From NCBI GenBank assembly GCA_020692325.1, contig JAIMKR010000007.1, positions 1 through 64,000 of the forward strand: 64,000 nt of DNA. Reading direction: 5' to 3'. The position numbers and the translations under genes were made by a program. Positions 37,331 to 42,119 of this stretch are shown one piece after another. The stretch's first letter is position 1, and the number at the start of each line of letters is the position of its first letter. The notes beneath the pieces are model-generated. The model worked only from the letters and a program-made list of their open reading frames with translations, did no database searches and had not been told where the DNA came from. Source of the DNA: Desulfocurvus sp. (GTDB taxonomy: Bacteria > Desulfobacterota > Desulfovibrionia > Desulfovibrionales > Desulfovibrionaceae).

Positions 37331-37962
37331 AGGCCGATCTCCTTCAGACCGGTTTCCAACCCCTCGCGGGCCAAATCCGCCGCCGGCACCCACTGCCCCT
37401 TGCGGTGCATGTACTTGCCGATGTCCAGCAGGTTGTCCGTCAGGGCCTTCTGGGTCTCGTCGTAGTGGTAGCGCGACACGAGCCGCTTCCCCTTCACGTC
37501 GATGAGATAGAGGTCAATGACCACGGAAGCCGGATTGCCGCCGCCCTCGAACTCCTTCCAGCGCAGCACCTGCGGCACGAGCAGGAAGTCAGTCGGCACG
37601 CAGTCGCCCACGGTCAGCCAATAGGTCCAGGCGGATTCGCGCGACTTGCCGGTGTTCTCGGAGGTCACAATCTCCTGACACTGATGCACGGCCGCCGGAG
37701 AGGAGGTCACACTGACGCCATGGGCGTGCACGATCTGGCCCAGGGCCTCGTCGAGTTTGGTCAGCGTGGCGGCGGGCACGACCTTGCCCTCATCGGGGAG
37801 GTAGCCGGCCAGCAGCTCCCAATTATACTGCGGTGCGGAGAACGGCGCCACGGCGATGCTGCCCAGCGGGCGCGGCTGCGGCGGAATGGGCTTGGGCGAG
37901 CAAGCGGCCAGGCCGATCAACGCGCACAGGACGAGGGTCGAAAAAAGATTGCGTAAACGCAT
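37327..37962 (-). CDS. Lipoprotein of unknown function between hisB and hisA
   Basis: The 211-residue protein starts with a lipoprotein signal (LFSTLVLCALIGLAAC, lipidated Cys21). The mature part begins with a Pro-rich stretch and IAVAPFSAP, a pattern seen at the start of CsgG- and GNA1162-like lipoprotein domains, though I cannot assign it. It overlaps hisB by one base and hisA by four, so it is translationally coupled inside the histidine genes. Its likely place is the periplasmic face of a membrane, which does not fit histidine synthesis. Confidence 0.75.
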   Translation of the reverse strand: MRLRNLFSTLVLCALIGLAACSPKPIPPQPRPLGSIAVAPFSAPQYNWELLAGYLPDEGKVVPAATLTKLDEALGQIVHAHGVSVTSSPAAVHQCQEIVTSENTGKSRESAWTYWLTVGDCVPTDFLLVPQVLRWKEFEGGGNPASVVIDLYLIDVKGKRLVSRYHYDETQKALTDNLLDIGKYMHRKGQWVPAADLAREGLETGLKEIGL

Positions 37963-38549
37963 CAGTCCACACTCCCCTTGGTGCTGGAGACGCCCGCCCG
38001 GCAGACCACGATGGCCTGGCGCAACGCCAAACCAAGGGCCTTGAAGGCGGCCTCCAGCAAATGGTGGCCATTTTTGCCGTATTCGTAACGGATGTGCAGG
38101 TTCATTCCCGCGCGCTGCGCGAAGGATTTGAAAAATTCGCGCCAGACGTCCTTTTCCTCGCCGGCGATGACAGCTGGCAGCACGTCGTCGGCGTAGACGA
38201 GATACGGCCGGCCGGAAAGATCGACGACAACGTCGGCCAGAGCCTCATCCATGGGCACGCGGGCGCTGGCCACGCGTGCGATGCCGGCCTTGTCGCCCAG
38301 GGCCTCGGCGAAGACCTGGCCCAGGCACAGGCCGATGTCCTCCAGGCTGTGGTGCGCGTCCACCTGCAAATCGCCCCGGCAGGTGAGGGTCAGGTCGAAC
38401 CCGGCCCAGAATCCCAGCAACGTCAGCATATGGTCGGCAAAGCCGTAGCCGGTCTCGATGCGGCATTCGCCAGCGCCCTGCAGACGCAGGGTCACGCCGA
38501 TGTCCGTTTCCTTGGTGGTGCGCGTCAGCCGCGCGGTGCGCTCGCCCAC
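37962..38549 (-). CDS. hisB: Imidazoleglycerol-phosphate dehydratase
   Basis: The 195-residue monofunctional HisB removes water from IGP. Its two manganese-binding repeats show [18 protein letters not shown] with [11 protein letters not shown] and, in the second half, [17 protein letters not shown] choose GTG at 38549 because GGGAG stands 8 bases before it and the length then equals the family norm; the ATG at 38576 lacks a ribosome site. It lies 124 bases after the tat fusion gene. Confidence 0.95.
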
Positions 38550-38673
38550 TGTGCCGCTCCCTCTGCGCCGTTGCATGTCGTCGTCATGACGGAAAATCCC
38601 GTCCTGATCGCATTTCTAGACCGGAAGCGCAGGGCCTTGTCAAGCGGGCCGGCGCTTCCGCGGTCCCGTGCCG

Positions 38674-40485
38674 TCAGGCGGCCGGGGCCTCCTCCTCGGG
38701 CTGGGGCTTCTTCTTGCCGAAGAAGTAGGCCAGCCAAATGCCAACCTCGTACAGCAGCACCAGCGGCACGGCCATCATGGTCTGGCTCACCGCGTCCGGA
38801 GGGGTGAGCGCGGCGGCGAGCACGAAGGCCCCCAGAACGGCGTACTTACGCTTCTTGCGCAAGCCTTTGTAGGTGACGAGGCCCAGCCGCGCCAGAAAAA
38901 ACAGGAACAACGGCAGCTCGAACACGATGCCGAAGGCCACCAACAACTTCATCACGAAGTCGAAATAGTCGTCGAGTTTTGGAGTGAAGGTCAAGATGTC
39001 GTTGGAATAGCTGGCGAAGAATTCGAAGCCGTAGGGGAAGACCACAAAATAGCCGAACAGCGCGCCGGCGGTGAAGCACAGGGCGGAGAAAAAGGCGATG
39101 GGCGCGATCCAGCGGCGCTCGTGCGAGTAAAGCCCGGGCGCGATGAACTGATAGATCTGATAGAAAATGTACGGGCTGGCCAAGAAAATGCCGGCCACAA
39201 AGGCCACCTTCATCTCAGTGAAGAAGGCTTCGGTGGGCACGGTGTAGATGAAATGGCTCTGCTTGAGCGCGTTGAGCATGGGCTGCATCAGGATTTTAAG
39301 CATCTGGCCGGCGTAGGCGTAGCAGACCAGGAATCCCACCACCATGGCGATGGCGCTGCGGGTGAGCCGCTTACGCAAGTCCTGCAAGTGGCCGAACAAA
39401 CTCATGCGGCCGGCCTGCCCCTCGCCGACGGCGTCATCGCCCGCTGGGGGCGGGGGAGGCGGGGGAGGAGGCGTGGCGCCCCCCTCTGCCGGCGCGGCGG
39501 CCGGCTCGACGGCGGCTGGCGCTGCGGGCTCCCCGACGTTCGCCGGAGCCTGCGGTTCGTCGGCATTGGCCGGAGCCTGCGGCTCCTCGACGTTCGCCGG
39601 AGCGGAAGGAGCTTCCTCCGTTCCCGGCGCGGCGGAATCGGCGGACGGCGCGGGCGCTTCACCCGCCGGTGCCCGGGGCTCGTCCGCATGGGCCGGAGCC
39701 TGCGCTTCCTCGACATTCTCCGGGGCTGGCGGCGACGTCTCTGCGCCGCTCGAACCGGACTTGCCGGACTCGGCTGCGGCCGTCGCGGCCTGGGGGACTT
39801 CAAAATTCCCGCTCGCGGCGGGCTCGACGTGTTGTTCGGATGGCCCGGCCGTTCCGGCGGACTCGGCCGCCGGAGCTTCCGGTTCCTCGGCTTGAGCCGG
39901 GGTATGCGGCGTTTCGACGGGGGTGGAGGCGTTCGCGCCGGAACCGGCGGCGGCGGACGCGGTTTCGCCCGGACTTTCGGACTTGGATGCGGCAGGTTCG
40001 GAGGGGGTGGAAACGACGGGCGCGGACGGCGCTTCGGTCGGCTGTGGCGCTTGGCTCCCAGCGGATTCCTTGGGCTCTTTCGGCTCGCTCGGCTCTTTGG
40101 CTGCGGGCTCATGGGGAGCCTCCGCCCCTCCGGGCGCGGCCTCTTCCTTGTCGCGCTTTTCCGATGCGGCCCCGGCCTGTTCCTGGGCATCCTCGGCAAT
40201 GGAGCCGGACTCCTCGCCAGGCTTTTTCGCCGTGGGCTCACTGGACGCGCCGGCGGCCTCGCCCTCCGTCTTGTCGCCGAAGAGCTTCTGCTCCGCTTCG
40301 GCCTTGCGCTTTTCGAAATCGGCGGCCTCGGTCTCGCGCTCGATGGTGCGCTTGAACTCCCCGCTCATCTGCTTGAACTCGCCAAGAGCCTTGCCCAGGC
40401 TCTTCATGAGGTCGGGCAGCTTCTTGGGGTCAACCACGATGATCGCCACAAGGGCGATGACGAGCATTTCTCCGGTTCCGAACAT
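38674..40485 (-). CDS. TatB-TatC fusion protein of the twin-arginine translocase
   Basis: One uninterrupted frame of 603 residues joins two Tat parts. Residues 1-55 are a TatA/B-type unit: Glu6, the helix MLVIALVAIIVV, the hinge DPKKLP and an amphipathic helix (DLMKSLGKALGEFKQ). Residues 361-603 are a full TatC: GHLQDLRKRLTRSAIAMVVG, YTVPTEAFFTEMKVAF, ASPYIFYQIYQFIAPGLY and six membrane helices. Between them about 280 residues are rich in Ala, Pro, Glu and Ser, with 9-residue repeats and nine prolines (339-347). TatB and TatC are normally separate; TatA must be encoded elsewhere. TAGGAG precedes the ATG. A separate TatC could start at Met361 (39405), where only a weak GAGG site stands upstream. 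Confidence 0.92.
   Translation of the reverse strand: MFGTGEMLVIALVAIIVVDPKKLPDLMKSLGKALGEFKQMSGEFKRTIERETEAADFEKRKAEAEQKLFGDKTEGEAAGASSEPTAKKPGEESGSIAEDAQEQAGAASEKRDKEEAAPGGAEAPHEPAAKEPSEPKEPKESAGSQAPQPTEAPSAPVVSTPSEPAASKSESPGETASAAAGSGANASTPVETPHTPAQAEEPEAPAAESAGTAGPSEQHVEPAASGNFEVPQAATAAAESGKSGSSGAETSPPAPENVEEAQAPAHADEPRAPAGEAPAPSADSAAPGTEEAPSAPANVEEPQAPANADEPQAPANVGEPAAPAAVEPAAAPAEGGATPPPPPPPPPAGDDAVGEGQAGRMSLFGHLQDLRKRLTRSAIAMVVGFLVCYAYAGQMLKILMQPMLNALKQSHFIYTVPTEAFFTEMKVAFVAGIFLASPYIFYQIYQFIAPGLYSHERRWIAPIAFFSALCFTAGALFGYFVVFPYGFEFFASYSNDILTFTPKLDDYFDFVMKLLVAFGIVFELPLFLFFLARLGLVTYKGLRKKRKYAVLGAFVLAAALTPPDAVSQTMMAVPLVLLYEVGIWLAYFFGKKKPQPEEEAPAA
39535..39615 (-). repeat. 27-bp tandem repeats encoding the Tat linker
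   Basis: Three adjacent 27-bp units (39535-39561, 39562-39588, 39589-39615) share the core GCCGGAGCCTGCGG on the plus strand and encode the 9-residue motif APANVEEPQ / APANADEPQ. Two more diverged copies (APAHADEPR, APENVEEAQ) lie at about 39679-39730. They point to linker growth by slippage or recombination. Confidence 0.8.
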
Positions 40486-40553
40486 ACGCTCCTATCCTGA
40501 GAATCTTGCGGTGCGGGGCGGGTGCGCCTTGGGGTCGGCCTGCGCCGTCCCGC

Positions 40554-42095
40554 CTATTCCCACTCGATGGTGCTGGGCGGCTTGCTCGAAATATCGAACA
40601 CCACCCGGTTGACGCCCTTGACCTCGTTGATGATGCGGCTGGACATGCGCGCCAGGATGTCCGCCGGAAGGCGGGTCCAGTCGGCCGTCATGGCATCGAG
40701 GCTGTCCACGATGCGCAGGGCGATGACATGCTCGTAGGTACGGTCGTCGCCCATGACGCCCACGGTCTTGAGAGGAAGGAGCACGGCGAAGCCCTGCCAG
40801 ACCTTGCGGTACCAGCCGCTCGCGCGCAGCTCCTGCTGCACGACCATATCAGCATGGCGCAGGATGTCGAGCCGGGGCTCGGTGATTTCGCCGATGACGC
40901 GGATGGCCAGCCCGGGGCCGGGGAACGGGTGCCGCCAGATGATGTTCTCGGGCATCCCGAGCTCGGCGGCGACCTTGCGCACCTCGTCCTTGAACAGCTC
41001 GCGCAGGGGCTCCACGAGCTTCAGATTCATGTGCTCCGGCAGGCCGCCCACGTTGTGGTGGCTCTTGATGACCGCGCTGGGCCCCTTGAAGGACACGGAC
41101 TCGATGACGTCCGGGTACAGGGTGCCCTGGCCGAGGAAGCCCACGCCCTCGATGGCCTTGGCCTCGCGGTCGAAGACCTCGATGAAGGTGTGGCCGATGA
41201 TCTTGCGCTTCTTCTCGGGATCGTCCACGCCGGTCAGGCGCTCCAGGAAGATCTTCTGGGCGTCCACGCACTTCATGTTGAGGTCGAAGTGCTCCCGCAG
41301 GAAGCCGATGACCTCCTCGCGCTCGCCCATGCGCAGCAGGCCGTTATCGACGAAGATGCAGTAAAGCCGCTTGCCGATGGCCCGGTGCAGCAGCACGGCG
41401 GCCACGGTGGAGTCGATGCCGCCGGAAAGGCCGAGGACGACCTTGCCGTCGCCGACCTGCTCGGCCAAACGCTTCACGCTGGAGTCGACGAAGGACGACA
41501 TGCTCCAACCCGGCTTGAGTCCGGCGATCTTGAACAGGAAGTTCGACAGGATGCGCGCGCCCTGCTCGGTGTGCGCCACCTCCGGGTGGAACTGCACGGC
41601 GTAGATTTTCCGCGCCGGGTCGCACATGGCGGCGTTCTCCACCTTGCCCGTGGAACCGATGCGGGAGAACCCGTCCGGCAGCCGGCCCACGTGGTCGCCG
41701 TGGCTCATCCAGACCTTCAGCCGGTCCTTGTGCTCCACGCCGTCGAAGAGCGGGCAGTCGCCCAGGGCGGAGAACACCGCCGGGCCGTACTCGCGGTCCG
41801 TTGCGCGGCTCACCTCGCCGCCCAGGGTGTGCGCCAGAATCTGCATGCCGTAGCAGATGCCGAGGATGGGCACGCCCCACTCCAGGTAGGCCTTGGGCAG
41901 AGGGGGCGCGCCGGCGTCATGCACGCTGGAGGGCCCGCCGGAAAGCACAAGCGCGCCGGGGTTCATGGCCTTGATGGCCGCCGGATCGCTGGTGCAGGGA
42001 TGGATTTCGGAATACACGCCGGCCTCGCGGATGCGTCGCGCGATGAGCTGCGTGACCTGCGAACCGAAGTCGATGATGATGACCTTGTCTTGCAT
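40554..42095 (-). CDS. guaA: GMP synthase (glutamine-hydrolysing)
   Basis: The 513-residue enzyme converts XMP to GMP. The amidotransferase domain has its Cys in [17 protein letters not shown]; the ATP-pyrophosphatase P-loop is [15 protein letters not shown]; the C-terminus is the dimerisation domain ending IEWE. I start at ATG 42095, 9 bases after GGAGG, not at the ATG directly behind the guaB stop. It is the second gene of guaBA, consecutive steps from IMP to GMP. Confidence 0.97.
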
Positions 42096-42119
42096 GGGGG
42101 CGTCCCTCCGCTGGTCCAT

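Follow-up and report, generated by a model that had tools for sequence, protein, structure and literature searches.

A natural TatB-TatC fusion gene from one genus of Desulfovibrionaceae probably encodes a single-chain Tat receptor subunit

Does a gene of the window, the 64,000-nucleotide stretch of Desulfocurvus sp. DNA analysed here, encode the two Tat receptor components TatB and TatC as one polypeptide and, if so, would this polypeptide act as a receptor subunit? The gene (38674..40485, on the minus strand like all features given below) comprises 603 codons and a stop codon, runs from ATG (40485-40483) to a stop at 38676-38674 and has AGGAG (40489..40493), read off the sequence, as the likely ribosome-binding site of its full-length start. 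The TatB-type unit of the product (aa 1-69; 40279..40485), a transmembrane helix and an amphipathic helix, matches Pfam TatA_B_E (PF02416) over aa 3-51 (E 2.1e-11; 43.3 bits, above the gathering cut-off of 21). TatC (aa 361-603; 38677..39405) matches Pfam TatC (PF00902) over aa 366-574 (E 6.8e-77; 258.4 bits, above the cut-off of 25.1) and TIGR00945 over the whole domain (236.4 bits, above the cut-off of 132.7). These Pfam and NCBIfam profiles identify the C-terminal part as TatC and bear out the original prediction of TatB followed by a complete TatC in one 603-residue frame. The N-terminal part is identified as a TatA_B_E protein which by position and likeness is to be classed as TatB, although it fails two strict TatB tests. 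Among the NCBIfam TatA/B models tatB (TIGR01410) fits it best, with 54.1 bits against 39.1 for tatAE, a score slightly below the tatB cut-off of 56.5. It also holds the place of tatB between guaA and TatC, a sign of descent taken from synteny. The two domains are separated by a linker (aa 70-360; 39406..40278) rich in Ala, Pro, Glu and Ser, for which the predicted Ala/Pro/Glu-rich character was correct and the predicted length of about 280 residues becomes about 290.

The openness of this frame is weak evidence when taken alone, since the opposite strand of this GC-rich DNA is likewise open over 610 codons across the gene, and a second frame of the same strand is free of stops through the linker in 6 of the 12 genomes that carry the fusion. 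The reality of the fusion rests on its conservation. In a sample of 15 genomes of the genus, the window's own included, the same architecture, with the TatB unit and TatC in one stop-free frame, is found intact in 12. The locus is interrupted by contig ends or partly absent in the remaining three: in G153 the two frames lie at different contig ends, the TatB frame running off one while still open and the TatC frame entering likewise open from another; G175 has a TatB frame cut off, still open, by the end of a contig and lacks a TatC among the matches listed; and G189 has a TatC frame that begins at the edge of a contig and lacks a TatB unit among the matches listed. A frameshift in the linker, one of the two hazards named with the original prediction, was not found in any of the 12 genomes, all of which keep the frame without a stop. 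Moreover, both halves of the fusion are under purifying selection: mean dN/dS by NG86, over 66 related pairs, comes to 0.21 in the TatB unit and 0.20 in TatC. A sequencing or assembly error that joins two genes does have a precedent in the phylum sample: an apparent second fusion in G202 (L142/L156), from another family, is a run of N in the scaffold between TatB and TatC, and a relative of this genome, G326, has separate tatB and tatC genes. However, the gene of the window contains no N and the fusion is common to 12 genomes, and an artefact can for practical purposes be set aside.

How widely is the fusion distributed? It had been suggested that it might be general in the Desulfovibrionaceae; among the genomes sampled, those with the fusion all belong to a single genus. 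Among 72 TatC loci from other genera of the family (69 genomes, 42 genera) none is fused, one locus (L030) that reaches a contig end being undecidable. A search with the TatB unit in 288 genomes of the family gave matches in 274, and among the matches listed outside the genus the TatB-type frame is at most 241 aa long, with the sole exception of a 324-aa frame in G081, which was rejected as a fusion because TatC lies in a different frame. The long open frames found at TatC in other genera were also rejected: they represent N-terminal extensions of TatC, and any adjoining tatB is in another frame. At the level of the class, five of the eight genomes from other families in a sample of 120 were checked and none carries a fusion. 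At the level of the phylum, TatC is present in 151 of 158 genomes, and 39 loci outside the family, including all 11 frames of at least 316 aa among the matches listed, were checked: 38 are unfused and the remaining one is the run of N mentioned above. A contig scan returned seven loci, six from five members of the genus (one split over two contigs) and a single Rhodospirillales TatC, which is unfused. The survey covers the phylum as sampled and makes no claim of absence in other bacteria. In those parts of the open literature that were accessible, engineered or selected TatB-TatC fusions of E. coli are described and no natural one was found. Judged by its sequence, the whole protein can be classed as a TatBC receptor of a new, one-piece form.

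The origin of the fusion can be approached through its relatives. In a maximum-likelihood tree of 95 TatC domains the 12 fused proteins form one clade (100/99), whose sister is the unfused genus of G013 (99/91). The upstream neighbour of the fusion gene (40554..42119) is guaA and the downstream neighbour (37962..38576) is hisB; the order guaB-guaA-tat-hisB-hisA recurs unchanged at all loci inspected, two of them fused and four unfused. The unfused tatB-tatC pairs of the family share this neighbourhood in the loci inspected and mostly have a long TatC N-terminal extension, but differ from the fusion in that tatB and tatC lie in different frames, overlap in many cases and encode a TatB with a hinge glycine. 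An ATGA overlap between the stop of tatB and the start of tatC, which is in another frame, occurs at 11 close unfused loci, three from the sister genus and eight from other genera close to it. In 48 of 60 unfused loci tatB ends at the letters ATGA or GTGA. The distance between the TatB and TatC domains has a median of 196 codons in the fused genes (n=12; linkers of 163-301 codons between HMM borders) versus 196.5 in unfused relatives (n=60; 69-434 codons), in which it is divided between the tail of TatB and the N-terminal extension of TatC. Since unfused relatives already have the same interdomain distance, the linker is not a new invention and, given such junctions, a frameshift near the overlap would suffice to produce the fusion. 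These observations support the view that adjacent tatB and tatC genes were joined in place in an ancestor of the genus. We infer that the linker would consist mostly of two older tails, that of TatB and the old TatC extension, altered later by repeats; the order of these events is likewise as we infer it.

The linker sequence is variable among the 12 fused proteins. Its last stretch, the segment GDDAVGEGQAGR (aa 349-360; 39406..39441), directly before TatC, is conserved in all of them and follows the consensus of a proline run and then GD[DE]AV[GA]E[GS]x[SA][GA]R, abutting Met361. The description of the linker as built of repeats holds for a part of it, namely three tandem copies of a 27-bp unit (39522..39603; TRF score 106), and fails for the remainder. 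Several relatives within the genus carry larger repeat arrays in their linkers than the window does. The periods of the tandem repeats in the linkers are multiples of 3, with the exception of one array that scored as 21 and also as 22, and this regularity is a further sign that the frame is real. AlphaFold modelling with five fused proteins (those of the window, L001, L002, L003 and L005) gave a pLDDT of 44.1 and a pTM of 0.28, and in this low-confidence model neither helix nor strand is predicted for aa 70-360. A long and variable linker, with little structure predicted at low confidence, could be cleaved after translation, leaving mature TatB and TatC as separate proteins. However, both the frame (12/12) and the end of the linker before TatC are conserved, and processing of this kind is judged very improbable.

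The fused proteins also differ from their unfused relatives within the domains: ten alignment columns of TatC and fourteen of TatB have a residue that all or nearly all fused proteins share and that unfused ones seldom show. In TatB, the alignment places Asp19 (40429..40431) at the hinge position, G21 of E. coli TatB. The residue is Asp in 12/12 fused proteins versus Gly in 60/60 unfused ones; Asp is also found in the broken loci of G153 and G175, and all TatB rows listed from outside the family have the hinge glycine. Glu6 (40468..40470) is the counterpart in the alignments of the polar residue E8, and this Glu and the L-P of the amphipathic helix are present in 12/12 fused proteins, in which two residues are absent ahead of the polar Glu. 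According to the accessible text of PMC5201420, the marks of TatB are an X-G-P hinge, Glu8 and an L-P within the amphipathic helix; the hinge glycine is called invariant and sequences lacking it were filtered out. All 12 fused proteins have V-D-P or I-D-P in place of X-G-P, and such a filter, as described there, would exclude them because of the Asp.

The hinge Asp and the two-residue deletion could mean that the TatB half no longer plays its normal part, the work of TatB being done by a TatA paralogue. Most TatA paralogues of the genus among the matches listed carry an F-G-P motif, which the accessible text of PMC5201420 assigns to the TatA of two-component systems (TatAbasal). Nevertheless, the TatB unit is under purifying selection and has kept the polar Glu and L-P, so that a loss of this kind seems very improbable. 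In one member of the genus an additional TatA-like protein (L059 of G029, 1501-1650) reads FNWRKLPEL and is likewise without the hinge glycine.

Within TatC, where the register was taken from the PDB alignment, Asp369 (39379..39381) is the counterpart of E. coli E15. Asp occupies this position in 12/12 fused proteins and also in 4/72 unfused TatCs of the family; since the change is conservative and is seen in unfused proteins, membership of TatC is not in doubt. In the accessible part of PMC13323110, E15 is described as contacting the first arginine of the signal via a water. Ala559 (38809..38811) aligns with E. coli L206, adjoining the TatB-binding site, and is Ala in 12/12 fused proteins versus Ile, Val, Leu or Met in unfused ones. 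Other functional positions are kept in 12/12 fused TatCs each: F94 and E103 of the signal-binding site and T208 and Q215 of the polar site (E. coli numbers). Both Asp substitutions, the one in the TatB hinge and the one that replaces E15, are derived; it is a guess that they might compensate for the tether.

Is the fusion protein the only receptor available to its host? The genome of the window is listed as 100% complete and yields one TatC match and four TatA_B_E matches. The other three TatA_B_E paralogues score higher with tatAE than with tatB (67.1/30.2, 62.1/29.0 and 49.3/17.1 bits, respectively), and the genome's sole TatC and sole TatB-type protein is the fusion. The twin-arginine signal family gives eleven matches, all below the family cut-off; judged by eye, ten of them look plausible as signals and retain the RR, and the eleventh (L173) seems spurious. 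These ten candidate signals suggest that Tat export is in use, with the fusion protein as the only candidate found for both parts of the receptor. A 205-aa frame (L168, G000:C8:32871-32933) has a start resembling that of a Tat-exported formate dehydrogenase, and its early end may be a selenocysteine TGA.

The internal ATG of Met361 (39403..39405), the former TatC start, is kept in 12/12 fused genes. The second hazard named with the original prediction, proof that this ATG is the sole source of TatC, was not found either. If it is also used, one gene would yield two products, the cell making free TatC beside TatBC at a TatB:TatC ratio below 1:1, in line with the conservation of this codon. Moreover, a Met is found no more than seven residues before the HL..LR motif in 66/72 unfused TatCs, including 56/60 of those with an extension longer than 30 aa, and in the fused genes the DNA upstream of Met361 resembles a Shine-Dalgarno sequence more closely than the linker does (mean percentile 0.28, KS p 0.0013, n=12), with a p-value inflated by the relatedness of the 12 sequences. 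On the other hand, the purine stretch, GAGGG, stands some 12 bases away from the ATG, some genes have GAAGG or GAGAG in its place, and the Shine-Dalgarno signal is not significant at 58 unfused loci (mean percentile 0.41, p 0.08). Use of the internal start beside the full-length one is judged unlikely. It is slightly less probable still that TatBC, some free TatC and TatA would build an asymmetric TatA1B2C3 complex whose composition is set by translation and not by competition between TatA and TatB. Among the unfused TatCs of the family, a simple start-site rule gives N-terminal extensions longer than 30 aa in 60/72 (e.g. L069 and L023). Dual initiation across the whole family would be a possible explanation for the Met kept near the start of the domain in the extended proteins.

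The reading preferred here, to which a probability of roughly 0.78 is given, is that the gene encodes a working single-chain TatBC receptor subunit. It is favoured by the single frame, the 12 intact genomes, the signature of selection, the single clade, the synteny, the ATGA overlaps of close unfused loci, the lack of a second TatC in the genome beside three TatA-type paralogues, the ten plausible twin-arginine signals and the TatC residues that are kept, and is weakened by the internal ATG with its Shine-Dalgarno-like upstream sequence and by the missed tatB cut-off together with the loss of the hinge glycine. An engineered E. coli TatB-TatC fusion was reportedly described by Bolhuis et al. 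in 2001. The accessible part of PMC5102672 describes engineered E. coli fusions that support transport and are partly dominant negative beside the wild-type proteins, the former property being a further point for this reading and the latter one against it. The E. coli fusions of that report resemble the protein of the window in joining TatB and then TatC in one chain; they differ in being laboratory-made or selected and in having a TatB with a normal hinge, whereas the fusion of the window is natural and present as the sole copy. The (TatBC)3 core of E. coli, N. salsuginis and M. xanthus is composed of the same TatC and TatB-type families, although as separate chains in the structures presented in the accessible part of PMC13323110. 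The fusion matches the PDB entries 9dzz, 9e02 and 9e03, and no PDB match spans both halves of the query.

How would a single-chain receptor subunit work? Three fused chains would assemble into the known (TatBC)3 receptor, each contributing a TatC and a pair of TatB helices. The linker would lead from the TatB tail to the N-terminus of TatC, both cytoplasmic and neither resolved in the E. coli complex. This tether would hold TatB at 1:1 with TatC and near its site, and its length would allow a TatB helix to leave the site and a TatA to be admitted. Twin-arginine substrates would bind as usual, with TatA supplied by separate genes. The idea that folded substrates dock at the linker is not upheld by the 2026 structures in the accessible part of PMC13323110, which show binding to the core complex via the signal peptide.

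The fusion can fairly be expected to fix the TatB:TatC ratio, a quantity that is still argued. A strict 1:1 ratio is denied in the accessible part of PMC11178869, and that of PMC13323110 (2026) proposes TatA1B2C3, with one TatB place taken by TatA. With its only TatB-type protein tied to its only TatC, this bacterium provides a natural test of whether exchange between TatA and TatB is needed, and it keeps a Tat system in which Asp replaces a supposedly invariant hinge glycine.

Other departures from the usual tat gene set were seen. No tatB was found beside tatC in genera g6, g10, g26, g31 and g41 (L029, L064, L075, L104, L103, L107, L115 and L116), and the two g41 genomes inspected (G041 and G069) have two TatCs each. 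Beside an ordinary TatC, G035 has a second, highly divergent one (L117), whose end branch in the tree of 95 TatC domains measures 4.09.
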